A DNA stretch of 64,000 bases from Bacteroidota bacterium (lineage in GTDB: Bacteria; Bacteroidota; Bacteroidia; Flavobacteriales; Schleiferiaceae): positions 1 to 64,000 of the forward strand of contig JANSYJ010000006.1 of assembly GCA_024742495.1 (NCBI GenBank), given 5' to 3'. The notes under the pieces are model-generated. The model saw nothing but the letters and a program-made list of their open reading frames with translations. It was not told the origin of the DNA and did no database searches. Below are positions 42,192-53,731 of the stretch, piece by piece; the first letter of the stretch is position 1, and each line of letters opens with the position of its first letter. Position numbers and translations under genes: made by a program.

Positions 42192-42578
42192 ATGTTTAGA
42201 GCATTTTCACATATAGTCATAATCCTTACGGTCCTTTTCTCGCAGCTATATAATAGCGCCGTAAGTGCCGTTTACAGTCTTAATAGGGACTATTATGCTA
42301 CTGAGTTATGTGAAGAAAAGAGCAATCCAAATTCCCTTTGTGAGGGATCTTGCTTCTTCTCTAAACAACTAAATCTAAAAAGTAAAAGTGCGCCCAAAGC
42401 GGCAAGCTTGCATTTTGTAGCCAGCCCTCCACTCTTTTTTGCGCCAGGCTATAATTTAGTACTAAGGCCCTCTCTTGTCTTTTATAAAAAAGGTTTCCCT
42501 TTTACGGATGCCATTAAAATCCAAAACCCCTATCGTAGAGATATAGAACATCCCCCGGAAATTGGCGCTCCTGCCTAG
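42192..42578 (+). CDS. Small cysteine-motif protein of the copper locus
   Basis: A 128-residue protein with an N-terminal hydrophobic segment (about 5-25) followed by Y-S-L-N-R-D-Y-Y-A-T-E-L-C at 28-40 and L-C-E-G-S-C-F-F-S-K-Q-L near 49-60. This pattern (L-C..., C-x-G-x-C, K-Q-L) is that of short Bacteroidota proteins encoded beside metal-related TonB receptors. The three cysteines could bind a metal. It ends in a proline-rich tail. It is followed by the YtkA-like lipoprotein and the copper receptor, so a role in copper handling is inferred; its exact role is unknown. Confidence 0.72.
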   Translation: MFRAFSHIVIILTVLFSQLYNSAVSAVYSLNRDYYATELCEEKSNPNSLCEGSCFFSKQLNLKSKSAPKAASLHFVASPPLFFAPGYNLVLRPSLVFYKKGFPFTDAIKIQNPYRRDIEHPPEIGAPA

Positions 42579-42613
42579 TTTCAGTTCTATTCTAATTTTT
42601 AAATACGATACAA

Positions 42614-43444
42614 ATGTTTTTCAATAAAATTAATTTGCGAGTAGCTATGGCTGCTGGCCTACTACTTCTCATGTCTGCTTGTTCCAAAGATGAAGACGAC
42701 GATAAACAAGTAAATAGTAATAATCCTTTATCCGAATATGTACTCCTGGGTGAAGAAAGCACCGCCAACGCTTCTGTTCGACTTTATGCAAGTGAAGATG
42801 CTTTTGTGGGCTATAATGAAATCGCTGTTCAGGTGTTTCAGCCGGGAACCGATAATCAATTGAGAGCGGTATCTATTCAACTCCTGCCAATGATGGACAT
42901 GGGGATGATGAAGCACAGCGCCCCTTTTGAAAATCCAACTTATAATGAAAGTCTTAGCGCTTTTAGCGGCTCTTGTACTTTTATAATGCCCAGTGGACAA
43001 ATGGGGTCTTGGACCTTAGCTGTGCTATTAGATAATGAAGGAGTTAGAGATACTCTTACTTTCCCCATCATTGTGGTTCCTAAAGCAGAAGCCAGGCTTA
43101 TCAGCTTTGAATCTGAATTGGATAGTAGCAAAATTTTTGTTGCCTTAAGAGCACCGATGGGTCCAGAAATTGGGGCTAATTCTTTTGAGTTGATGATCTA
43201 TGAAAGGGAAACCATGATGGCCTTTCCCCCTGTGGAAAATCTAAGTGTTGAAATCACCCCCGAAATGCCAACCATGGGTCATGGCTCACCCAATAATGTA
43301 AATCCTATCCACATGGAAAATGGTCATTATGTTGGAGAAGTGAATTTTACCATGAGTGGATACTGGAAAGTTCATTTTATGCTTAAAGACAGTTCTGGCC
43401 AGATGGTGAAATCCGATGGCTACTTTGATATCACCTTTCAATAG
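42614..43444 (+). CDS. Met-rich YtkA/FixH-like lipoprotein
   Basis: A 276-residue lipoprotein (lipobox L-M-S-A-C near 18-22, then acidic D-E-D-D-D-K). It appears to have two related beta-domains. Each carries a methionine/histidine cluster followed by an immunoglobulin-like strand: M-M-D-M-G-M-M-K-H near 94-102 with M-G-S-W-T-L near 131, and P-E-M-P-T-M-G-H-G-S near 214 with G-H-Y-V-G-E-V-N-F and G-Y-W-K-V near 238-258. This is the YtkA/FixH pattern seen in copper-related proteins. Cu(I) binding is inferred from the Met clusters and the neighbouring receptor. Confidence 0.78.
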   Translation: MFFNKINLRVAMAAGLLLLMSACSKDEDDDKQVNSNNPLSEYVLLGEESTANASVRLYASEDAFVGYNEIAVQVFQPGTDNQLRAVSIQLLPMMDMGMMKHSAPFENPTYNESLSAFSGSCTFIMPSGQMGSWTLAVLLDNEGVRDTLTFPIIVVPKAEARLISFESELDSSKIFVALRAPMGPEIGANSFELMIYERETMMAFPPVENLSVEITPEMPTMGHGSPNNVNPIHMENGHYVGEVNFTMSGYWKVHFMLKDSSGQMVKSDGYFDITFQ

Positions 43445-43465
43445 TCGCTAGTACAGCGCTTTTCA

Positions 43466-43512
43466 ATTGCTCTATTCCTGCCTGGTTTAAAAGCTAGGCA
43501 GGATATAGCAAT
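43466..43512 (+). other. Long hairpin between lipoprotein and receptor genes
   Basis: ATTGCTCTATTCCTGCCT (43466-43483) pairs with AGGCAGGATATAGCAAT (43496-43512), about 16 pairs with one mismatch and one bulge around a 12-base loop. No T run follows, so it is not a standard terminator. It may stabilise or split the mRNA between the lipoprotein gene and the receptor gene. Confidence 0.6.
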
Positions 43513-43535
43513 CCTAATTCCTTAAACATCAAAGC

Positions 43536-45533
43536 ATGAAAGCTGTATTTCCTATTCTTCTATATTTCTGGACAACAGGACTTTTTGCGCAAGAGGATAC
43601 CACTTTCGTGGATATGCGCCATAACAATCTTGACGAGGTATTAATTATAGATACCTGGGAGTCCAAAGATGCCTTAAAAAGTAAAGTAGAGTTCCAGCCC
43701 CTAGAAGTTCAATTAAAGCAAATACAAGGTGTAAGTTTAGTTTCCCGCGGTAGCTTTGCCCAAGAATTGGTTTTTCGAGGGCAAAGAGATGGCCGCATTC
43801 AGGTGCGTGTAAACGGCATGCGGATTTACAATGCTTGTACCGATCGAATGGATCCATCTACCTCCTATGTAGTTTCTAATAATTTACAAAGTGCGGAACT
43901 AAGCTCTTCTTGCGAAAGCGCCTGTGCCGCTAATGGCTTAGCTGGAAACTTCAATTTGAAAACAAAAGAGGCTTGCCTAAGCAAAACCGATAGCTTTAAA
44001 TTTGGATTAGCTCAGCAATACCTTTCCAATACCCACGGACTAAACTCTAGCTTTTACCTTGAAAATAGTAGTGAAAAATTTGCCTGGCGCCTCAATGGTA
44101 CTTGGTTTAAAAATAAGAATTACCGCGATGGAAAAGGGCGAGAAATTTTGTACTCCCAAAATCAAAAGCAAAATTGGTCCTTAAACACGATTTACCGTTT
44201 AGGTCCCAAGCGCTTTATTAGTTTAGATCTAATTTATGACCTAGCTACCGATGTTGGTTACCCTTCTCTACCAATGGATGTGAGTATCGCTAGAGGCTTA
44301 ATTGGTGGCATTAGCTATAGAAGCTATCATGCCCTTGGCCCTTTTAAAGATTATGAGCTAAAGCTTTATCACAACGACATTTACCATGAAATGGACGATA
44401 GCCAGCGTGAAAATGTTTTCATGCATATGGATATGCCCGGCTGGAGTCGCACTTCAGGCTTGAGTTTTAATGCTTTTAACTGGGAATTTAGCAGGCATAA
44501 AATTGAATGGGCGGCGGAATATTTCAGTAACTACCGCCGCGCTGAAATGACCATGTTCCCAGACAATGGCCTGGAACCACCAATGTTTATGCTCACCTGG
44601 CCCGATGCACGGCTACATGGATTGGGAACTGGAGTCAGTGGACATTTCAACTTTGGCTTGCATCAGTTGATGCTCAATATTCGATTCGATTATGAAAGCT
44701 CTTCGATTACCGATAAAATTGGCCGGGATCAATGGATTGGCATGGGCTTTAATATGACCGATGCCCGTACTTATCATTTGCCACAAGTGAGCCTTAATTA
44801 CAGTCGATTTCTCAATGACCAACATCAGCTTAAGCTCGCTTTAAGCTACGGTAAGCGTGCACCAACTAGCTCCGAACTTTATGGCTTTTACCTCTTTAAT
44901 GCGCATGATGGTTACGACTATTTAGGCAATGCCAACCTTAAGGCCGAGGGGCTGATTAGCAGTGAAATGGGATATGTTTATAGTCACCAAAAAATGAATC
45001 TCACATCAACGGTTTTCATTCAGCAATTCAGCGATTATATTTTTGGTTTAAACACGAATTTCGATGCCATGACCTTTGGTGCAAATGGCGTTCGTGCTTA
45101 TGAAAACGTTGGAGCCGCTACCTTCTGTGGCTTTGAGTTGGGAGCATCTTATCAAATCCATAATGCTTGGAAAGCCCAAAGTACTGTGGAGTATATCCGA
45201 GGCTTTAGACCTCAATCTGATTTACCCCTCATTCCGCCTTTACAGATTGATTTTAGTTTGAACTATAGTTATGGGCATTGGAATTTTGCGCCTCAACTGC
45301 GCTATGCCGCCGAACAAAATCATTTTAATTCCGATTATGGCGATCGCTATACGCCTTCCTATTTCCTAATAGACCTTGCGGCGAACTACCGCTTTAAGAT
45401 TAACAAAGCCAATACCCTTGTAAGCCTCGCAATTAACAATTTAGCCGACAGCTATTACCGTGATCATTTAAGCTGGGCAGGCATCCCTAGTATGGGTCGC
45501 AATATTAGCTTAGGTATAAAATATGGACTTTAA
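43536..45533 (+). CDS. OprC/NosA-like copper TonB-dependent receptor
   Basis: A 665-residue outer-membrane receptor without the carboxypeptidase-like domain. A signal peptide (1-18) precedes a plug domain and barrel. The copper site of Pseudomonas OprC, C-x-x-x-M plus H-x-M, is found as C101-T-D-R-M105 (within N-A-C-T-D-R-M-D-P) and H284-E-M286 (followed by D-D). NosA of Pseudomonas stutzeri, of the same family, supplies copper for N2O reductase. Extra Met/Cys residues (S-S-S-C-E-S-A-C near 123-130) are also present. It lies directly upstream of, and converges on, the nos operon, which supports a copper-import role. Confidence 0.88.
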   Translation: MKAVFPILLYFWTTGLFAQEDTTFVDMRHNNLDEVLIIDTWESKDALKSKVEFQPLEVQLKQIQGVSLVSRGSFAQELVFRGQRDGRIQVRVNGMRIYNACTDRMDPSTSYVVSNNLQSAELSSSCESACAANGLAGNFNLKTKEACLSKTDSFKFGLAQQYLSNTHGLNSSFYLENSSEKFAWRLNGTWFKNKNYRDGKGREILYSQNQKQNWSLNTIYRLGPKRFISLDLIYDLATDVGYPSLPMDVSIARGLIGGISYRSYHALGPFKDYELKLYHNDIYHEMDDSQRENVFMHMDMPGWSRTSGLSFNAFNWEFSRHKIEWAAEYFSNYRRAEMTMFPDNGLEPPMFMLTWPDARLHGLGTGVSGHFNFGLHQLMLNIRFDYESSSITDKIGRDQWIGMGFNMTDARTYHLPQVSLNYSRFLNDQHQLKLALSYGKRAPTSSELYGFYLFNAHDGYDYLGNANLKAEGLISSEMGYVYSHQKMNLTSTVFIQQFSDYIFGLNTNFDAMTFGANGVRAYENVGAATFCGFELGASYQIHNAWKAQSTVEYIRGFRPQSDLPLIPPLQIDFSLNYSYGHWNFAPQLRYAAEQNHFNSDYGDRYTPSYFLIDLAANYRFKINKANTLVSLAINNLADSYYRDHLSWAGIPSMGRNISLGIKYGL

Positions 45534-45989: not shown

Positions 45990-46772
45990 TTAAAAATCCT
46001 TTCTACGGCTTTTTCTAAAAATACCCAGAATGGGAATGGCAGTCCATAAAAAAAGCATTCCGCTTGCCACCAACATGCCCGGTAAGGTACCGGCGAAGCT
46101 TTTAAAAACGGCACCGGTATAGCCCATTAAAGCAGATATATCCAATTTTAACAAGACTAAGATTCGAGATAGGTCGATAGGATTTACAGCGGTGGCTATT
46201 AGGGCAAATACATCTAATGGGTAGTCTTCCATCACAATTAAAAGCATGAGGAAAATGCCATCGTAAATTACCGCTAGAAAGAGCCAAAGAAGAATGGCGT
46301 AACTAAAGCCTTTAATTTTATGATCATTGCGCATGGCCAAGTTAAAAGCCAGTCCGGTGAAGATAAAACTCAAAGCAGATCCTATTAAGAGGAGTAGGCT
46401 AAAGTCCCAAATAGCTGCGCTTTGACTAAGGCCATAAATTAGAAAAGGTATGCCTAAACCCAGTACCAAACTAATGGAAAGCGAAATGGCCACTCCTAAG
46501 TATTGACCAATAAAAATAAGTGGTCGGTTTATGGGCATGGCGAGCAGAAGCTCGGTAAACTCCGCCGAATTATAATAGTACATCACCCCAAAAATGGTGC
46601 TGATTAAAGGAACCAAGATGATGATGACATTCATAATGGTGATAATGCCTTTTCCCAGGTCATTATTGAGAAAAAGTAAGACAAAACCCAGCGCCAAATA
46701 AAATAAGAGGTAAACGTAAGTCCAGCGGCTTCGAGCCAAATCTATAAAGCTGTATTTAAGAATCTTAAGCAT
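45990..46772 (-). CDS. nosY: NosY, nos ABC-transporter permease
   Basis: A 260-residue ABC-2-type permease with six hydrophobic helices (about 15-36, 55-72, 100-125, 133-160, 168-190, 228-250). With NosF it forms the inner-membrane transporter that, through NosD, is required to build the Cu-S cluster CuZ of NosZ; the translocated substance is probably a sulfur species. It begins two bases after the nosF stop and is last in the nos operon. Confidence 0.9.
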   Translation of the reverse strand: MLKILKYSFIDLARSRWTYVYLLFYLALGFVLLFLNNDLGKGIITIMNVIIILVPLISTIFGVMYYYNSAEFTELLLAMPINRPLIFIGQYLGVAISLSISLVLGLGIPFLIYGLSQSAAIWDFSLLLLIGSALSFIFTGLAFNLAMRNDHKIKGFSYAILLWLFLAVIYDGIFLMLLIVMEDYPLDVFALIATAVNPIDLSRILVLLKLDISALMGYTGAVFKSFAGTLPGMLVASGMLFLWTAIPILGIFRKSRRKDF

Positions 46773-46774
46773 AA

Positions 46775-47476
46775 TTAGTCTTGTTCTGTTAAGGAAGCGA
46801 TGGCTTCTTCAAAATCACGGGTTTCCGCTTTTTGCTTTAGGGAATCTGGTGTGCCGCGGAAATAAATATGTCCTTCTAAGAGATAAACCAGTTCATCGGA
46901 TATTTCCTCAACAAACTGCATGATGTGGCTGGTAATTAATATGGTTTTTCCTTTATCCTTTTCCTCCCGTATTAGCTGCTTTAAATAAACCGTTGCTTTG
47001 GGATCCAAGCCGGTGGTAGGTTCATCCAGTATGATTAAGTCCCCATCGAACATGAAACAAAGTAGGAGGTTAATCTTCTGCCGGGTACCACCCGATAAGG
47101 CATGTAATTTTTTATTCAAGGATTCCTCTAAAGCAAATTTCTCAATGATCTCCTCATAACGGATAGCCCCCTTTCGCAAATCTTTAATCATCGCAATAAG
47201 CTCCTTTACCTTTAAGTTTCCCGGGAACTTCGCAATCTGCGGCAGGTACTGAATATTGTTGCGATAGTGATGCTTTTTTAGCACCGACTCGCCTTTAAAT
47301 TGAATTTCCCCACTATCGGGAATACACAATCCCAAAAGGGATTTTATTAAGGTAGATTTTCCCGAGCCATTGGGACCTAAAATGGCGAATACGCCCTGCT
47401 CATTTATTTCCAGGTTTAAATTAGATAGTACCTGGTTTTTCCCAAAGGTCTTATTAAGGTCTTTAATTGCAATCAT
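46775..47476 (-). CDS. nosF: NosF, nos ABC-transporter ATPase
   Basis: A 233-residue ABC ATPase. Walker A G-P-N-G-S-G-K-S-T is at about 34-42, the ABC signature reads L-S-G-G-T-R-Q near 127 and Walker B L-I-I-L-D-E-P-T-T-G-L-D near 147-158. It energises NosDFY for CuZ assembly. The ATG overlaps the nosD stop (ATGA). Confidence 0.93.
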   Translation of the reverse strand: MIAIKDLNKTFGKNQVLSNLNLEINEQGVFAILGPNGSGKSTLIKSLLGLCIPDSGEIQFKGESVLKKHHYRNNIQYLPQIAKFPGNLKVKELIAMIKDLRKGAIRYEEIIEKFALEESLNKKLHALSGGTRQKINLLLCFMFDGDLIILDEPTTGLDPKATVYLKQLIREEKDKGKTILITSHIMQFVEEISDELVYLLEGHIYFRGTPDSLKQKAETRDFEEAIASLTEQD

Positions 47477-48720
47477 TTTATAGCTTTCATGCGTGGATAG
47501 GGATCCACTAAATTATCGGGGGTAAAAACCGGGCTCACCTTTTCTGAAAAATCAATAATGTCCATAAACAAGCTCCGCAAGAGGACTATGGATTCTGGCG
47601 TGCGGTTGGCGATGTAAGAGAACAGTTTTACCGGGCGATAAGGAACATCACCAATTCCATCTCTATCTAAGTCATAGCCGGAATAAGAACTCCAGTAATT
47701 CCCTTCAAATCGATTGTCATTCAACTTGCTATTGTAGGAGAGATCGAAGGAATTATTAATGAAATTATTTTGGGTAAAAACATTGGCGTAGCAAGCTCCT
47801 AGGACTTTTATGGCCCAGCCATTCGATTCGAAATGGTTGCCGGTATAATTAATCCGGTTGGAGCCTTCAATATTAATTCCTGTAGTATTCTTTATAAATC
47901 GATTGTTGCTTATTTCGGCATCATAAATCTCTTTAAGTAATAAGCCATAGGAAGTTGAGCCCCAATTATTCTTAAAGACATTATTGGTCATTACAATGAA
48001 TTTGGAAAACATCACTGCCACCCCTGCTCCATTATTGTCAAAAATATTATTGGTGTAACTGTCATTATTAGAGAACATAAAATGCAAGCCATATCGCAGG
48101 TTTTCACGAGAGTGATTGTTACGGATGCTTACACTATCCGAGAATTCAAGGTAAATACCATCCCTTACTTTCTGAATGATATTTCGTTCCACCACTATGT
48201 TATGAGAATACCAGAGATGGATGCCATTCCCCGAATTGTATTCATCCTTGGCATTGCCGATAATTTTGTTGTGAAAAATTCTACCGTGATTGGCTTTTTC
48301 AAGGTAAATACCAAAGAATAAGCGCTCTAACACTAAGTTCTTTATGTCGAAATACTTACAGCGGACTAAACGCAAGGCGGCATAATCTACCGTATAGCTG
48401 GTACCTACATTCACCAAGAATAGTCCATCTACGGTAACACTATCCGCGAAGATGGTAATGATTTCACCTTTGAATTCGCCATTGACTTTTGGGTAATTCT
48501 CCCCTATCAAACAAAGCGGTTTGGTGATTTTTATGCCATGCTCCAAATACTCCCCTTTAGCAACGAGAACCGTATCAAAGGGATCTGCAGCATCTACGGC
48601 AGTGCCAATTTTAGCATAGTTACAGCCAGCACAAACCATAATGGTTTTAGCAGATAAATTGAAGCACAGGAGGCTTAAGCCAAAAATACCAAGGCTGATA
48701 TATCTTTTAAGGCTTGGCAT
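47473..48720 (-). CDS. nosD: NosD, periplasmic CuZ-assembly factor
   Basis: A 415-residue protein with a signal peptide (about 1-24) and a right-handed beta-helix of NosD/CASH repeats (about 30-385), seen as recurring N-x-I/F-x-x-N and G-I-x-L patterns. D-R-D-G-I-G-D-V-P-Y near 358-367 is typical of NosD C-terminal parts. It couples NosFY to NosZ in cluster assembly. A GTG one codon upstream is possible; the ATG at 48720 is preferred. It overlaps nosL by 14 bases. Confidence 0.93.
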   Translation of the reverse strand: MPSLKRYISLGIFGLSLLCFNLSAKTIMVCAGCNYAKIGTAVDAADPFDTVLVAKGEYLEHGIKITKPLCLIGENYPKVNGEFKGEIITIFADSVTVDGLFLVNVGTSYTVDYAALRLVRCKYFDIKNLVLERLFFGIYLEKANHGRIFHNKIIGNAKDEYNSGNGIHLWYSHNIVVERNIIQKVRDGIYLEFSDSVSIRNNHSRENLRYGLHFMFSNNDSYTNNIFDNNGAGVAVMFSKFIVMTNNVFKNNWGSTSYGLLLKEIYDAEISNNRFIKNTTGINIEGSNRINYTGNHFESNGWAIKVLGACYANVFTQNNFINNSFDLSYNSKLNDNRFEGNYWSSYSGYDLDRDGIGDVPYRPVKLFSYIANRTPESIVLLRSLFMDIIDFSEKVSPVFTPDNLVDPYPRMKAIK

Positions 48721-49189
48721 CACTAGGCTTTAAATGATCCTTTAACTGCGGCCAATCGTACAATTGCCCTCCCAATTCACCTTTGGCCTTTAAGGCACTT
48801 TCGTGATTTGGAAAAGCGGTTAAAAAGGCGCCCATAGGACTAGGAAGTTGTTCACTGATTAAATAATGTGCTTCGGCGGCTGTAATGAGTTCGGTCGCTT
48901 TTTCGTAATGATTAACCAATTGAAGTTGGGGTTCACCACTTTCAAAGTCTTGCAAATCATTGATCATGCATTCCACCGCATCGTATTTAAAAACCTTGCC
49001 TTTGTCGTTCACAATTTCGGCTCCGTGAATTTTATCGACGATAGTCATGTGGCAATAATGGCATTGATCGTGACCATAATTGATGGCTTCTTGATCCACC
49101 TTGCAAGCCGAAATACTAATGAAGGCTAGTATCAGCACTACAAGTTTGGATTTCCATTGCGCTAAAAAGAAATAGTTCTGATTGGTCAT
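48707..49189 (-). CDS. nosL: NosL, copper chaperone lipoprotein
   Basis: A 160-residue lipoprotein (lipobox I-S-I-S-A-C29) with the NosL motif C43-H-Y-C46-H-M48, that is C-x-x-C-x-M, which binds Cu(I). NosL delivers copper to NosZ. The fold continues with the N-D-K-G-K-V-F-K-Y-D-A-V-E-C-M stretch characteristic of the family. It is separated from the upstream membrane-protein gene by a 239-base gap that contains a strong hairpin (49334-49363). Confidence 0.93.
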   Translation of the reverse strand: MTNQNYFFLAQWKSKLVVLILAFISISACKVDQEAINYGHDQCHYCHMTIVDKIHGAEIVNDKGKVFKYDAVECMINDLQDFESGEPQLQLVNHYEKATELITAAEAHYLISEQLPSPMGAFLTAFPNHESALKAKGELGGQLYDWPQLKDHLKPSDAKP

Positions 49190-49333
49190 GTTGTTTTAAG
49201 ATGCAATTTGGTTTGAAACTCCTCTGTATGATACTAGCCAAAAAATGTTAGCTAAGGGATTGCTCTAAAATAGAATGCTCAACAGAATTGGAGTCTGATA
49301 AAAGTCATGCTTTACAAAGCATTTTTTGGGTTA

Positions 49334-49363
49334 AGGAGAGCCGCGGATGAAGACGGCTCTCCT
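49334..49363. other. Hairpin inside the nos operon
   Basis: AGGAGAGCCG (49334-49343) and CGGCTCTCCT (49354-49363) form a perfect GC-rich 10-bp stem with a 10-base loop. On the minus strand no T run follows. It could be an RNA processing or attenuation point between nosZ plus its membrane partner and the maturation genes nosLDFY. The rest of the 49190-49428 gap shows no gene. Confidence 0.6.
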
Positions 49364-49428
49364 ACAACCAAATCCCCTATTGGGAATTAAATCAAAGCTT
49401 AATGTTTTGATTCCCAAACAAAATCTAT

Positions 49429-50043
49429 TTATAGACTTGTTTTAAGGCTTCGCTTTCCCAGCCAAAAGGCCAGCAGGGTGAAAAACATACCAACAAATAA
49501 CATGATACCTCCTAGTCTAGGATAGGAATAAGCATCAAAGTTTAGTAGTTTTTTATGTCCTATTAAGGGTGGATTATACTGCATTGGTGTACCATCGGGG
49601 TTTACCAATTTCATAATGGCATTGGGATCTAAATCGGTTCCATACTCGATTAGCCATTGGTTAAAATCGTAGAGGCCTAAAGCGCCTAAAATCGACATCA
49701 AGATGAACCAAAATAAGAACCAATTCGGTGATATTCGCTTGAGTAAAGACACCATCGCGATAAGCACCCCAAGAATAGACATTCCCATAATTACCATTGG
49801 GAATACGGTAAACTCCCACATGTCTGCGGGTTTGGGTAAAATTTTCATTCCGATATAGTGGTTCAAACCATCAATATTTTGAATGTCAAATTCTGCCTCC
49901 CCTTTTAAGCCATTGATGTAAATATCAATTCCAAGAGGTTCGGGATATTGCGGGGCTCCCAATCGAATGTTCCACATTGGAAAAACGAAGAGGCCAAGAA
50001 TCAATACAGATCCAAGCAACATTGAAACACTAGCCGTTTTCAT
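49429..50043 (-). CDS. Membrane protein of the nos cluster (NosB position)
   Basis: A 204-residue protein with four hydrophobic helices (about 7-25, 80-102, 110-132, 180-197). A long periplasmic stretch between the first two (about 28-78) contains D-I-Y-I-N-G-L-K-G-E and L-N-H-Y-I-G-M-K, with His and Met residues. It sits directly after nosZ, where clade II clusters place the membrane protein NosB; homology cannot be judged here, so no symbol is given. The frame is open to 50106, but the ATG at 50043 gives a proper N-terminal helix. Confidence 0.75.
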   Translation of the reverse strand: MKTASVSMLLGSVLILGLFVFPMWNIRLGAPQYPEPLGIDIYINGLKGEAEFDIQNIDGLNHYIGMKILPKPADMWEFTVFPMVIMGMSILGVLIAMVSLLKRISPNWFLFWFILMSILGALGLYDFNQWLIEYGTDLDPNAIMKLVNPDGTPMQYNPPLIGHKKLLNFDAYSYPRLGGIMLFVGMFFTLLAFWLGKRSLKTSL

Positions 50044-50118
50044 AGCATCATTCTTTTTGGGGGAAATGATGTGCTTTAAATAATGTTGCCAAAATTTAAA
50101 GCACATCTATCTAGAAAT

Positions 50119-52086
50119 TTAATCTCCTAAAGACCAGCTGATTTCCAAATCGGAACTTGCTGGAGACACCCGAACATAGCCTTGCATTTCTTGGTGAAGC
50201 GCTGAACAGAAGTCGGTGCAATAGAATGGCCATACCCCTACTTTCTCAGGCTCCCAAAGGGAAGTTTTGGTTTGACCAGGCATGACAAGGATTTCGGAGG
50301 TACCGGCACCAATTATAGAGAATCCATGAGGTACGTCAAAATCTTGCTCGTGATTAGTAATGTGGAAGTAAACCTTATCGCCAACTTTCACACCTTCAAT
50401 ATTATCGGGAGTAAAGTGACTGCGAATGGTTGACATATAAATATGCACTTCCTTGCCTTCGCGCACAACCTTAGCTTCCGCAGGACTGTTTATGGCATAG
50501 GGATGCTTATTCTCATCCAAGCGATAAATCTTCTTGGAGTTTTGCACTAAAAGATCAGCATCACAGCCAGCAGCATAATGCGGCTCACCATGGGTAGGGA
50601 AATCATAAAGTAATTCCATTTTCTCACCCGTGATGTCGTAAATCTGCGCAGAGTGTTCCATCTCTGGACCTGTAGGCAAGTAGCGGTCCTTAGTAATCTT
50701 GTTCATCGCTACTAGGTATTTACCATGTGGTTTTCTAGAGTTACCTCCAGGAATCATAAGGTGACCTACAGAGTAAAAGGTTGGTTGACGGTCGATTACC
50801 TCCCAAGTGCCTAATTTCCATTTTACTACTTCAGAAGAGATAAAGAAAGTTGTGTAGGCATTTCCCTTGCCATCAAACTCCGTATGCAATGGTCCTAAGC
50901 CACCACTTTTCACTTGACCAGCCATTACATCCTCGAATTTGAGAATTGGAATACCATAAGCTTCTCCATCGAATTTCTCTCCGGCAATTGCATCAAGCAT
51001 TTTATCGAAAGAGTGCACGGTAAGGTCGGCAGATAATTTACCACTACCAATAATATACTGTCCGGTAGGATCTACATCACAACCATGAGGTGATTTAGGA
51101 GTTGGTAGTAGAAATATTGCTCCTGGAACTTCAGAAGGATTTACCACTAAAACCTCTTTCTTCATGGTTGATGTAGCGCTATGGGTCGCTTCATCATACA
51201 CATTGTGGGCATAATTAGCTGGCATCTTCGTACCGCCGCCATTATTCACGTATTCCTCAATTTTCTTCCAATTGATAGCGGCAATAAAGTCCTTATCATT
51301 TTGAGAGGCATTCACCTCTAAAAGGGTATTCGCTTCTTCGGTATTATAGGTAGAGAAGAAAAACCAACCATGGGATTTATCGCGTCCAGGATGAGATAAG
51401 TCGTAGTTAAAACCTGGCATCAACAATTGGAACTTGATGTCTAAGTGACCGTGTTCTGGCTCCACTTCTATAAAGGTTAAGGCACCTTTAAAGTTGCTTT
51501 TATACTCACTAATGGGCATATCGCGCTGAGGAACTGGTACAGAGAATCGGGTTCCTGCAACAACATATTCTGTATTCTCGGTAATGAAGGAAGAACTGTG
51601 GTTACCCGCACTATTGGGGATTTCCATAATTTCTTCAGTTTCAAAAGTGCTTAAGCTGATACGGGCAATACGTGGAGTATTGTTACCATTGGCGAAAATC
51701 CATCTACCGTCCAACTCACCGTTAGTTTGCGAAATATCCGGGTGATGCAAATCATCCCAAGGCACAAAGCCAAAAGAGGTATTTAACATCGGTTTGGTTT
51801 CTTCAGAATAACCATAACCAGAGGTAGGGAATTGTGAAAAAACTGGAATTTCCTTGAATAAACGTCCAGATGGTAAGCCGTACACCGTAAGATTCCCACT
51901 ATAGCCACCGGATAAGAATGCATATTGCTCATCTCTTTCACCTGGCGCAACGTATACCTTCTCGGCTGCGCTGCTTACTAAAGCGCCTTTGCCTTTGCCG
52001 CTATCACTAGCACCTTGATTGCCGCAGGAGGCGAAGAGGAAAGACAGCATGATGGCCGCCCCAATAAATATTCTAGTTGATTTCAT
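50119..52086 (-). CDS. nosZ: NosZ, nitrous-oxide reductase (clade II, lipoprotein)
   Basis: Reduces N2O to N2 in the periplasm. The 655 residues begin with a Sec lipoprotein signal (F-A-S-C21), not a Tat signal, which marks clade II. The CuZ histidines are recognisable: H114-H115 (L-H-H-P-D), H163 (G-N-H-S-S), and those in S-P-H-G, L-G-P-L-H-T-E, V-G-H-L-M and E-P-H-Y. The CuA site at the C-terminus reads Y-C623-T-D-F-C627-S-A-L-H631-Q-E-M634. All ligands are present, so the enzyme should be active. Membrane anchoring by lipid is inferred from the signal. Confidence 0.96.
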   Translation of the reverse strand: MKSTRIFIGAAIMLSFLFASCGNQGASDSGKGKGALVSSAAEKVYVAPGERDEQYAFLSGGYSGNLTVYGLPSGRLFKEIPVFSQFPTSGYGYSEETKPMLNTSFGFVPWDDLHHPDISQTNGELDGRWIFANGNNTPRIARISLSTFETEEIMEIPNSAGNHSSSFITENTEYVVAGTRFSVPVPQRDMPISEYKSNFKGALTFIEVEPEHGHLDIKFQLLMPGFNYDLSHPGRDKSHGWFFFSTYNTEEANTLLEVNASQNDKDFIAAINWKKIEEYVNNGGGTKMPANYAHNVYDEATHSATSTMKKEVLVVNPSEVPGAIFLLPTPKSPHGCDVDPTGQYIIGSGKLSADLTVHSFDKMLDAIAGEKFDGEAYGIPILKFEDVMAGQVKSGGLGPLHTEFDGKGNAYTTFFISSEVVKWKLGTWEVIDRQPTFYSVGHLMIPGGNSRKPHGKYLVAMNKITKDRYLPTGPEMEHSAQIYDITGEKMELLYDFPTHGEPHYAAGCDADLLVQNSKKIYRLDENKHPYAINSPAEAKVVREGKEVHIYMSTIRSHFTPDNIEGVKVGDKVYFHITNHEQDFDVPHGFSIIGAGTSEILVMPGQTKTSLWEPEKVGVWPFYCTDFCSALHQEMQGYVRVSPASSDLEISWSLGD

Positions 52087-52106: not shown

Positions 52107-52679
52107 TTAATTATTTGAAGGAAGCATTACGGCATCCACAACATGTATGATTCCATTACTTGCTTTTACAGTGGCTATGATTTTGGCGCCACCTACATAA
52201 ACATCATCCCCTTTCACCTCAACCGCTACCGATTGATCATTGGCTTGTCCCAGTTTTTTAAACTTCTTTAAAAACTCTTTGGAATAATTACCTGGGGTAA
52301 CATGGTACTTAAGGATGTTCGCTAAATCATCCTTGTTCTCAGGTTTTAGCAGACTTTCTACCGTTCCTTCTGGTAAGGCATCGAAGGCCTCATTAACCGG
52401 TGCAAAAACCATCAGTGGTCCTGCATTTACCAAAGCGTTTTCTAGGTCTGCAGCTTGTACTGCTGCTACTAAGGTGCTATGGTCTGCCGAGCCCACTGCT
52501 ATTTGCAGAATATTGGGATTAGATACCTCATCTTCCACAAAGGCTTGTCCCGATGTTTTATCGAGGCTTTCCTCACTAGTGGCTTCTGAGGCCTGAGTAT
52601 CATCGCTTGCCGCTGGTTGACAAGCGCTGGTGAAAATTGCAGCTATTAGTGCTACAGTCCAAATTGCTCTTTTTTTCAT
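52107..52679 (-). CDS. Fasciclin-domain lipoprotein of the nos operon
   Basis: A 190-residue lipoprotein (lipobox T-S-A-C near 20) with one fasciclin (FAS1) domain (about 58-190): T-L-V-A-A-V-Q-A-A-D-L near 71, V-F-A-P-V-N-E-A-F-D near 92 and I-I-H-V-V-D-A-V-M at the end. FAS1 domains mediate adhesion or protein binding. Fasciclin genes have been noted in Bacteroidota nos clusters, possibly related to complex assembly. It lies between the cytochrome and nosZ, 20 bases before nosZ. Confidence 0.88.
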   Translation of the reverse strand: MKKRAIWTVALIAAIFTSACQPAASDDTQASEATSEESLDKTSGQAFVEDEVSNPNILQIAVGSADHSTLVAAVQAADLENALVNAGPLMVFAPVNEAFDALPEGTVESLLKPENKDDLANILKYHVTPGNYSKEFLKKFKKLGQANDQSVAVEVKGDDVYVGGAKIIATVKASNGIIHVVDAVMLPSNN

Positions 52680-52704
52680 GATATTGATTTTGGTTGCTAC
52701 TTAA

Positions 52705-53202
52705 CTATAAGGTTCTAAAGAACTCGAGGATGTCACGAGCCTGTTCCTCGGTCATATTTTGATTGGCCATCGCCGCTCCGTTGAACTCTACTAAAAGATC
52801 CTTGGCACAACGATCTTCCTCCACCATTTTCTGCGGATCCAAAATCATGTTCATGATCCATTCTGGACTTCTACGTTGCATAATGCCTTTTGGAGAAGGG
52901 CCGATAAATCGTTTATCTACTTTATGGCAAGCAGAACAGTTGGTGCTAAACAAAGCCTCTCCTCGACTTACCATTTCATCATCAATCGTTTCCGCCAGTT
53001 CCAAATTGCTAATTGGACCTACCCCTTTATTATCTAGCGTGATTCTTTCCGATGCCGGTACCTCACTTTCAGGTTCCGCTTCTACAGCCGCAGCCGGCTG
53101 TGGCGAGGGTGTATTGGATTTGGCTGGCTCTTCACTCCCTCCGCAGTTTTGAAGGATGAAAGTGCCCATAATTAAGGCTAAAATGATGCTGATCTTTTTC
53201 AT
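52705..53202 (-). CDS. Cytochrome c lipoprotein, probable NosZ electron donor
   Basis: A 165-residue monoheme cytochrome c. The signal ends in a lipobox (L-Q-N-C20), followed by a Pro/Glu/Ala-rich flexible linker (about 22-55) and the heme domain with C89-S-A-C92-H93. The axial methionine is probably the Met of M-A-N-Q-N-M near 145-150. It is first in the nos operon, so it likely carries electrons to the CuA site of NosZ. The flexible linker would let the heme domain reach the lipid-anchored NosZ. Confidence 0.92.
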   Translation of the reverse strand: MKKISIILALIMGTFILQNCGGSEEPAKSNTPSPQPAAAVEAEPESEVPASERITLDNKGVGPISNLELAETIDDEMVSRGEALFSTNCSACHKVDKRFIGPSPKGIMQRRSPEWIMNMILDPQKMVEEDRCAKDLLVEFNGAAMANQNMTEEQARDILEFFRTL

Positions 53203-53219
53203 GGTTGTAAATTATATGA

Positions 53220-53263
53220 CGAAAGTACTGCCGGTCACAAAGGCTAGAAATGATAATTATCAT
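53220..53263 (-). promoter_or_regulatory. nos promoter with FNR-like palindrome
   Basis: TACTTTCG (minus strand, 53220-53227) resembles the -7 box. Upstream is a perfect 14-bp palindrome ATGATAATTATCAT (53250-53263), containing TGAT-N4-ATCA, the core of FNR/CRP-type sites. Its centre is about 40 bases upstream of the predicted start (near 53216), the class II activator position. The divergent Rrf2 regulator could instead bind here. Confidence 0.55.
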
Positions 53264-53296
53264 ATTTAAAGACCTTTTTATCTTTTTTTATTATTC

Positions 53297-53304
53297 TAAC
53301 TTTG
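53297..53304 (+). promoter_or_regulatory. -7 promoter box of the Rrf2 gene
   Basis: TAACTTTG is a perfect TAnnTTTG box ending only four bases before the ATG at 53309. The transcript would begin at or next to the start codon, so a leaderless mRNA is predicted. Confidence 0.5.
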
Positions 53305-53308
53305 TATC

Positions 53309-53731
53309 ATGCTTTCAAATTCCTTGGCCTACGCGATTAAGGCCCTCATTTACATTTCTCATAACAGTTCGGAAACGGAACGAATTACTTTAAAAGAAGT
53401 AAGCGATTCTACTGAAGTTCCAAAGCCCTATATCGCTAAGATTTTACAGGACTTAGTGCGTAATAATGTACTGCACTCAATTAAGGGTCCCAATGGCGGC
53501 TTTTACTTTAGTGAGGAAGGTTTGGATATCAGTCTTCTGCAGGTTGTTCATATCCTTGAAGGACCAGATAAGTACAACAAGTGTCTCTTAAGTCTTAAAG
53601 ATTGTAATGCCAGCTCTCCTTGTCCCCTTCACGACAATATTGGTCAAGTACGGGTTGAACTCTTAAAGCGATTGGAGCAAATCACCTTTCGCCAGCTCAT
53701 GCAGCATAAAAAGTCGGTTGACTTATTTTAG
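53309..53731 (+). CDS. Rrf2-family regulator with possible Fe-S cluster
   Basis: A 140-residue winged-helix regulator. The N-terminal DNA-binding part (Y-A-I-K-A-L-I-Y near 8-15, E-V-P-K-P-Y-I-A-K-I-L near 36-46) is typical. Three cysteines C92, C99 and C105 (C-x6-C-x5-C) sit where IscR and NsrR bind [2Fe-2S] or [4Fe-4S] clusters. It is divergent from the nos operon, so it probably senses NO, oxygen or redox state and controls nos expression through the palindrome at 53250-53263. The specific regulon is inferred. Confidence 0.88.
   Translation: MLSNSLAYAIKALIYISHNSSETERITLKEVSDSTEVPKPYIAKILQDLVRNNVLHSIKGPNGGFYFSEEGLDISLLQVVHILEGPDKYNKCLLSLKDCNASSPCPLHDNIGQVRVELLKRLEQITFRQLMQHKKSVDLF

Follow-up and report, generated by a model that had tools for sequence, protein, structure and literature searches.

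A candidate copper-sensing leader gene ahead of a putative OprC-type copper-acquisition operon that faces clade II nosZ in Bacteroidota

Nitrous oxide (N2O) reductase, NosZ, is the enzymatic sink known for N2O, and it requires copper. The described leader systems that come closest to the locus presented here are CruR and CutF, for which, as for all cited work below, we draw on excerpts of the papers. In Bordetella, a copper-receptor operon begins with the gene of CruR, a small exported protein that carries a CXXC motif and a C-terminal RAPP and turns the operon off on sensing copper, and oprC of Pseudomonas aeruginosa is likewise preceded by a cruR homologue (PMC9426467); arrest of translation by CruR has been shown in vitro (PMC12992588). 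CutF employs a CxxxC motif and a proline-rich end to unfold a stem by which the start of cutO is otherwise masked; the same source reports 5,334 CutF-like proteins, of which Bacteroidota contribute 40% once the counts are normalised, and mentions genes of this kind ahead of nosZ or nosR (PMC9973294). Copper-related RAPP/RGPP leaders have been reported missing from Bacteroidota, and TonB-related ones occur across Gram-negative bacteria (PMC12992588). Here we analyse a 64,000-nucleotide (nt) stretch of contig JANSYJ010000006.1 (assembly GCA_024742495.1, Schleiferiaceae, Flavobacteriales, Bacteroidia), hereafter the window, in which genes for a small Cys/Pro-Pro protein, a YtkA-domain lipoprotein and an OprC-like TonB-dependent receptor converge on a nos cluster. 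Judged from its sequence, the trio is probably a copper-acquisition operon, in which an OprC-type receptor and a Met-rich lipoprotein stand behind a copper-sensing leader and feed the copper enzymes of denitrification.

The preliminary description of this stretch had recognised the three open reading frames (ORFs) on the forward strand and their convergence with the nos genes on the reverse strand, and both are confirmed (Table 1). ORF1 and ORF2 are separated by 35 nt. The NosZ of the window scores 924 bits against TIGR04246 (cut-off 625), a model that we take to represent the clade II type. NosL and NosD match their own Pfam families, and an ABC ATPase is encoded by the ORF called nosF; this name, like nosY and nosB-like, is presumed from position. 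Across 38 loci that carry the YtkA-receptor pair, a Cys gene lies directly upstream of the pair in 30 and within two genes of it in 31, so that the arrangement of the trio exceeds chance.

Table 1. Coordinates of the features of the copper operon and its nos neighbourhood in the window.
Feature	Position	Strand	Remarks
Candidate leader ORF for copper sensing, operon gene 1; small Cys/Pro-Pro protein, putatively exported	42192..42578	+	128 amino acids (aa); three conserved Cys, Gly, C-terminal PP
C40-x9-C50-x-G52-x-C54 motif codons, putative Cu(I) site	42309..42353	+	invariant in 14/14 aligned members
Predicted mRNA stem	42531..42610	+	5′ arm 42531-42549 before PP; 3′ arm 42584-42590, 42595-42599, 42604-42610; inner hairpin 42558-42582 over stop codon
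Pro121-Pro122 codons (CCC CCG), putative arrest site, then six residues and stop	42552..42557	+	PP in 87/87 members
Met-rich YtkA-domain lipoprotein	42614..43444	+	276 aa; CSKDEDDD after lipobox, conserved M-P-x-M-G-(N)-H-x-S-P-N-N
OprC-like TonB-dependent copper receptor (putative)	43536..45533	+	665 aa; OprC match, NCBIfam, structure model
Plug ligands C101 + M105 (CxxxM; OprC C143, M147), codons	43836..43850	+	alignment to OprC
Barrel ligands H284 + M286 (HxM; OprC H323, M325), codons	44385..44393	+	alignment to OprC
nosY, nosF, nosD, nosL, nosB-like gene, clade II nosZ; likely client enzyme	45990..52086	-	convergent with copper operon
Fasciclin-domain lipoprotein (-), cytochrome c (-), Rrf2-type regulator (+)	52107..53731	.	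nos neighbourhood; homologues near nos genes in several relatives

The first gene belongs to a family without a name in the domain databases: ORF1 returned no Pfam or NCBIfam family, either alone or as a set of 14 relatives, apart from one chance Pfam match (E 0.009). Among 395 sampled genomes of the class Bacteroidia, the base of all co-occurrence counts given here, this Cys family was found in 212, where it often heads copper operons, and outside the class in 56 of the 148 genomes of a mixed-class sample of the phylum. The first 20 Cys-family loci were mostly from the top of the search list, four of them chosen for nearness to nosZ, and the later 20 were hand-picked in roughly even steps lower in the list; regions in three genomes (G017, G359 and G292) were left out of the examined loci. 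All 14 aligned members keep C40, C50, G52 and C54 together with a Pro-Pro two to six residues from the end, and each of the 67 members in the first-fetched loci has the Cys pattern and a Pro-Pro one to seven residues from the end. With 20 further loci added, Pro-Pro falls within the last 12 residues of 87/87 members; of the 606 ORFs of 80-300 aa that accompany the Cys genes in the first-fetched loci, 8 have it there. The C-x9-C-x-G-x-C pattern holds in 86 of the 87, the other one having x8 spacing, and the distance from the third Cys to Pro-Pro is 62-74 residues (median 66, sd 2.3). Since the linker carries 0.9 bits of information per column, compared with 2.9 for the Cys motif and 3.1 for the FHPP end, it is the distance that is kept and hardly the intervening sequence. 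Nearly all members (84/87) are shorter than 150 aa, ORF1 has an N-terminal hydrophobic segment as judged by eye, and in 86/87 cases the next gene lies on the same strand, at a median gap of about 75 nt.

A second set of 40 stretches was searched by a profile without the C-terminus. Three of them (L124, L145 and L147) held no member and one held two; 37 of the resulting 38 members end in Pro-Pro (19/19 in class, 18/19 outside it). Outside-class members (L126, L127, L129 and others) end in IDHPPN or SPPP. Apart from the trio, 43 of 45 next genes were scanned, a 93-aa ORF and a broken receptor being excluded, and these comprise 12 MbnP genes, nine TonB receptors and four Phenol_MetA_deg barrels, the rest belonging to other families or to none. 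The preliminary description had suggested that the Cys-motif protein may be a dedicated surface copper-binding partner of the receptor. Its C-terminal Pro-Pro, its near-fixed spacing and the complementarity at its 3′ end described below instead fit a copper-sensing leader ORF, and the family extends well beyond nos, with NosZ in 79 of its 212 genomes.

The 3′ end of the Cys gene is complementary to the region just ahead of the next start codon. In the stem tests, gaps outside 20-300 nt were excluded and 79 and 80 of the 86 Cys loci were used. Cognate duplexes average -9.9 kcal/mol as against -6.6 kcal/mol for mismatched ones (permutation z -13.1, 79 loci), and three control sets of 80 other gene pairs gave z of -0.8, -0.4 and -0.6. 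Removal of similar members (70 loci left, 69 usable) leaves z at -11.2, and the signal is found both where the lipoprotein comes first (z -6.5, 22 loci) and in the other operons (z -8.7, 47 loci). Mapping of the arms localises the 5′ arm to 0 to +24 nt past the Pro-Pro codons (z -12.3); the 3′ arm maps to -25 to -5 of the next ATG (z -10.5). The signal declines to either side, with small shoulders at -36 to -12 before the end of Pro-Pro (z -2.4) and at -45 to -25 of the ATG (z -3.7). In the second set of stretches, where 34 of 36 same-strand members had gaps within the same limits, the test gave z -4.3 in class (19 loci) and z -2.8 outside it (15 loci). The fold z averages -2.1 over 76 pairs and -1.1 over 90 control pairs (p 2e-5). 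In the window, the predicted stem folds at -19.3 kcal/mol (z -2.76; 3 of 200 shuffles as good) and its 3′ arm ends three bases before the ATG at 42614; a separate prediction returned the same fold. The case that the stem would shield the start of the next gene is strong at the level of the family and moderate for the window alone.

It is also conceivable, if rather unlikely, that the output of the leader is attenuation of transcription, through Rho or a terminator, and not masking of translation. CruR acts by Rho-dependent termination (PMC9426467), and no search for Rho sites was made here. A strong hairpin followed by a T-run is no commoner after the Cys gene than in control pairs (7/76 vs 53/463), and an intrinsic terminator at this place was rejected for want of enrichment; moreover, the 3′ arm keeps a set place relative to the next start (-25 to -5), which speaks for a stem that acts on translation.

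With CutF of Rhodobacter capsulatus and the CutF-like proteins, the family shares a length mostly below 150 aa, an N-terminal segment of putative export type and Pro-Pro near the C-terminus, and also, from the published account, a CxxxC motif (here C-x-G-x-C) and a stem that shields the start of the next gene (PMC9973294). The rules given there for CutF-like proteins describe ORF1 as well: it has 128 aa (<150), a PP within the last 15 residues and C50-E-G-S-C54 as its CxxxC (PMC9973294), and the next gene lies on the same strand within 1000 nt. The Cys family of the window may sit among the 5,334 proteins reported there. It differs from CutF in a third conserved Cys ten residues earlier, in an FHPP-type end, in having no DUF2946 match and in the distance between its motifs, which is about 66 residues as against 45 in the account of CutF; furthermore, its next genes are often of uptake type, so that the opposite copper sign is expected. 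CruR, a DUF2946 protein of the cruR-crtA(bfrG) operon of Bordetella pertussis, is similarly a small exported Cys protein with a C-terminal Pro-Pro, encoded by the first gene before a copper TonB receptor, but is described with CXXC, RAPP, a 162-nt intergenic region and Rho-dependent termination (PMC9426467), and the receptor of its operon is of CrtA type, not OprC type (PMC12914433). In the NSP-stop and NAP-stop clusters of arrest peptides upstream of sec genes, leader ORFs of Bacteroidota likewise finish on a conserved proline; they are tied to protein export and not to copper, have a single proline at the stop, and come with no mention of a Cys motif in the excerpts of that report (PMC10987492). 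Among the matches listed, a Thioclava receptor 24% identical to that of the window follows a small gene ending in RGPPSVA, whose DUF2946 score of 22.1 bits lies below the cut-off of 23.7. Proteobacterial and Bacteroidota OprC-like operons may therefore have different leaders of like design.

Several observations speak against the first gene as a stem-controlling leader. The 87 members were retrieved with a profile in which the Pro-Pro columns are present, and the test loci include relatives. Seven of the 38 pair loci are without an upstream Cys gene; one of these (L024) begins at a contig end, and in the other six no Cys ORF was detected by the script. Among the new loci outside the class, one Cys gene has no Pro-Pro and 7 of 19 are off the Cys pattern, which together with the different ends of such members indicates that the family has subtypes; the stem test there has 15 loci, and a control stretch at +40 to +60 of the next gene also reaches z -1.8 (p 0.047). 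The count of strong hairpins shows no difference from controls (39/76 vs 206/463, p 0.32). The stem of the window falls short of the average of the family, with a complementarity rank of 0.077 and a fold z between -1.4 and -2.76, and its 5′ arm lies before, not after, Pro-Pro, though a ribosome stalled at Pro-Pro would cover either placement. A relative (L020) is without complementarity (rank 0.53). Lastly, the family is not DUF2946: none of 14 members matched PF11162 at E 0.01, hhalign against one DUF2946-like protein gave a probability of 0.15 on a scale of 0-100, so that Pfam and hhalign found no homology between DUF2946 leaders and the Cys family, and a search of the window's genome found no DUF2946 protein.

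The third gene of the operon was called an OprC/NosA-type TonB receptor in the preliminary description, and this is borne out in the sense of an OprC/NosA-like protein. OprC is the sole PDB sequence match of the window receptor at E 0.001 (E 1.9e-21) and the top Foldseek match of its structure model (E 2.6e-33, template modelling score 0.79; mean predicted local distance difference test score, pLDDT, 79.7). The copper ligands of OprC are Cys143, Met147, His323 and Met325 (PMC8610252), which the PDB alignment places at C101, M105, H284 and M286 of the window receptor. Each of the 13 aligned receptors keeps these four residues unchanged, and the set is complete in 54 of the 55 receptors above 300 bits, the window's included; the 55th has a broken frame. 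Met-rich stretches (MHMDMPGW, EMTMFP and PPMFMLTW) are common to close relatives. The receptor thus resembles OprC of P. aeruginosa and NosA of Pseudomonas stutzeri in fold, best PDB match and CxxxM-HxM ligands, and differs in being about 20% identical, in its occurrence in Bacteroidota, and in an operon with an upstream lipoprotein gene and another leader family. Among NCBIfam models it scores highest with TIGR01778, 'TonB-dependent copper receptor', at 159.4 bits; this is below the equivalog cut-off of 472, which tells against a full identification, and we therefore name it OprC-like and not OprC. We regard it as a putative outer-membrane copper receptor of OprC type with the full CxxxM-HxM set. 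For NosA itself, a link to copper loading of NosZ was described, which a later report in another strain did not confirm (PMC8610252). Two variants of the receptor locus were also seen. In four loci (L064-L067), OprC-like receptors of one family (f76) without lipoprotein and Cys leader lie beside a sensor kinase and a LuxR-type response regulator, as if the two-component regulator replaced the leader; these neighbours were assigned by clustering, and the kinase was scanned in L064. In another locus (L062), the receptor frame is interrupted by a stop codon, and the upstream Cys leader is intact.

NosZ was found in 129 of the 395 genomes, the lipoprotein above 180 bits (the strong set) in 33 and the receptor above 400 bits in 43. 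The preliminary description proposed co-occurrence of the trio with clade II nosZ as a check, and the pair is enriched there instead of occurring mainly in genomes without nosZ: of the 31 genomes with an adjacent lipoprotein-receptor pair 25 have NosZ, compared with 104 of the 364 others (odds ratio 10.4, p 1.4e-8). Stratified by family, with membership compiled by hand from the listed rows and genomes negative in every search missing, the odds ratio of lipoprotein and NosZ is 4.4 (p 0.002). The pair lies within about 8 kilobases of nosZ in 5 of the 25 genomes with both (0.12 expected), or in 4 of 24 without the window (p 6e-6), and nos genes appear in 6 of 12 stretches around the receptors of the order sample (L017, L018, L019, L020, L021 and L025, the last without the lipoprotein). 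The Cu nitrite reductase NirK is associated as well: it was found in 12 of 26 genomes with lipoprotein and NosZ, and in 3 of 35 NosZ genomes without the receptor, hand-picked among 97 (p 0.001; 11 and 2 above the NirK cut-off, one match on each side falling under it). In one genome (G056) the trio is near nirK. Where the receptor occurs without the lipoprotein, NosZ is present in 7 of 12 genomes (p 0.06), and NirK in 2 of those 7. The Cys family is weakly associated with NosZ (79/212 vs 50/183, p 0.02; 57/183 vs 46/179, p 0.15, with strong-lipoprotein genomes removed), and for this weak co-occurrence the Cys gene was rejected as a nos marker.

These data also bear on whether the operon serves general copper uptake without a special tie to N2O, its correlation with nosZ mirroring large respiring genomes, a reading we find rather unlikely. 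In its favor, and against a denitrification feeder, the strong lipoprotein is absent from 103 of the 129 NosZ genomes, 7 of the 33 lipoprotein genomes are without NosZ, and adjacency to nos is a minority state of the pair, which is in most cases not close to nos genes. The pair is therefore neither necessary for nor specific to NosZ. The near loss of the Cys-NosZ association once strong-lipoprotein genomes are removed points the same way, as do weak lipoprotein matches of 68-123 bits in ten genomes of one family (f58), none with NosZ and all outside the strong set: when these are counted, the association drops to 26/43 (odds ratio 3.7). Against general uptake stand the persistence of the enrichment within families, the repeated adjacency to nos genes (in the window and in L017-L021, L036, L052 and L056), the case of proximity to nirK and the enrichment of NirK among NosZ genomes that have the lipoprotein. 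An exclusive tie to NosZ is not borne out, with the strong lipoprotein in 26 of 129 NosZ genomes. Because the pair tracks NirK too and many NosZ genomes are without the lipoprotein, copper denitrification in general is a better label for a feeder operon than NosZ alone.

The second gene encodes a protein with a YtkA domain (PF13115, 38.9 bits, cut-off 25.9). An OprC-like receptor adjoins the lipoprotein on the same strand in 32 of 34 matches above 180 bits, with matched ranges 8-240 bp apart, and the C-terminal block M-P-x-M-G-(N)-H-x-S-P-N-N is kept in ten aligned lipoproteins. In the window, the lipobox Cys is followed by a stretch (CSKDEDDD) that exactly fits C-X-K-(D/E)2, the surface-export signal of lipoproteins in Capnocytophaga (PMC5080379). 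Among 37 members with a recognisable lipobox, 28 have at least two D/E at +2 to +7 and 9 have the exact signal. That this Met-rich protein is the partner of the receptor, as first suggested, is supported in so far as it is a near-constant neighbour with a surface-export-type N-terminus; its position at the cell surface we infer from that signal. Its AlphaFold2 model (pLDDT 58) is too poor for a structure search, and we accordingly claim no site geometry.

An unlikely alternative makes the lipoprotein a chaperone that delivers copper within the periplasm to the CuA centre of NosZ, the role proposed for CtaK at the CuA site of caa3 oxidase. The YtkA domain scores above the Pfam cut-off and the protein co-occurs with NosZ; CtaK of Bacillus subtilis is a YtkA lipoprotein connected with copper and with a CuA enzyme; it has been implicated in assembly of the CuA site, and together with the YtkA domain of YcnJ supports Cta activity (PMC13344008). 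Unlike CtaK, the lipoprotein of the window is Met-rich, with an acidic export-type tail and a near-constant outer-membrane receptor beside it. This tail, the tie to the receptor and not to nosZ (5/25 near), and the occurrence of the lipoprotein in genomes without NosZ argue instead for a partner of the receptor. It is improbable, too, that the Cys gene yields a stable chaperone, periplasmic or anchored in the membrane, that passes Cu(I) among receptor, lipoprotein and enzymes, with Pro-Pro as a structural element. Its three conserved Cys and Gly, its copper-related neighbours, its N-terminal hydrophobic segment and the early conjecture, in the excerpts on CutF, that CutF too was a chaperone would fit this, but Pro-Pro constantly at one to seven residues from the end, near-constant spacing over a poorly conserved linker, the place before a same-strand gene and the complementarity between 3′ end and next start would all be left unexplained.

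Under the reading of a leader-controlled uptake operon, the lipoprotein would give copper to the receptor at the cell surface, the receptor would draw it into the periplasm with TonB energy, and periplasmic copper would serve denitrification enzymes, above all NosZ but also NirK in genomes that have it. The first gene would act as a copper-sensing leader ORF. Figures quoted for nascent chains allot about 30 residues to the tunnel and 17 to the membrane crossing (PMC9973294), and subtracting these from the roughly 66 residues between the Cys motif and the arrest site would leave the Cys motif in the periplasm. For an uptake operon, expression is expected at low copper and closure at high copper. 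At low periplasmic copper, the ribosome would stall at Pro-Pro, the stem could not form and the uptake genes would be translated; copper on the Cys motif emerging in the periplasm would release the stall, the stem would close the next start and the operon would be shut. The opposite sign, as in CutF, is also conceivable. More broadly, we lean towards the view that Bacteroidota own a phylum-wide family of copper-sensing arrest peptides (C-x9-C-x-G-x-C and a C-terminal FHPP, some 66 residues apart, with no DUF2946 homology detected) that would report periplasmic copper at the mouth of the Sec channel and control, through an mRNA stem, operons for OprC-like receptors with surface lipoproteins, for MbnP/MbnH and for other outer-membrane copper proteins, including a feeder of N2O reductase.

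In open-licence literature we found nothing on this operon, its stem or a tie to clade II nosZ and, by title, nothing on copper uptake by clade II N2O reducers of this phylum. A concrete candidate route of copper uptake for these organisms is offered by the OprC-like receptor together with its lipoprotein, and the leader family, whose 14 scanned members carry no database name, would be a widespread regulatory route across Bacteroidia; if so, 'hypothetical proteins' become markers of copper operons. A search for related loci with the window returned a single relative, and a plasmid search gave 248 records, all below 60% identity (best 20 of 248 listed).

MbnP and MbnH, known beside TonB receptors of copper-peptide operons (PMC3621798), recur around the Cys family, behind the OprC-like receptor in some loci and immediately behind the Cys leader in others, though outside the window's operon. 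MbnP (PF20243) and an MbnH-like di-haem gene (PF03150) directly follow the receptor in three loci (L018, L024 and L029), follow a second Cys gene in another (L023), and lie nearby on the other strand in a fifth (L043); the families were scanned in L018, L023 and L024, and assigned by clustering in L029 and L043. In the window's own genome (G000), contig 12 carries a second Cys member that ends in NPPQV and is followed by MbnP and then a di-haem MauG-type gene (L090), a second candidate leader-controlled copper operon. In four further loci (L075, L081, L083 and L088) the Cys leader precedes Met-rich, barrel-like proteins of about 350 aa with MxMxMxM runs, for which Pfam matches are weak or absent; they are likely a further kind of outer-membrane copper protein. 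On the nos side, the gene of the fasciclin-domain lipoprotein (52107-52679) adjoins nosZ in the window, and homologues are near nos genes in seven relatives (L019, L025, L036, L056, L069, L070 and L072). An iron-sulphur repair gene of RIC type is near the copper operon in five loci (L002, L017, L021, L037 and L039; scanned with TIGR03652 in L017 and assigned by clustering in the others), in line with a denitrification setting.

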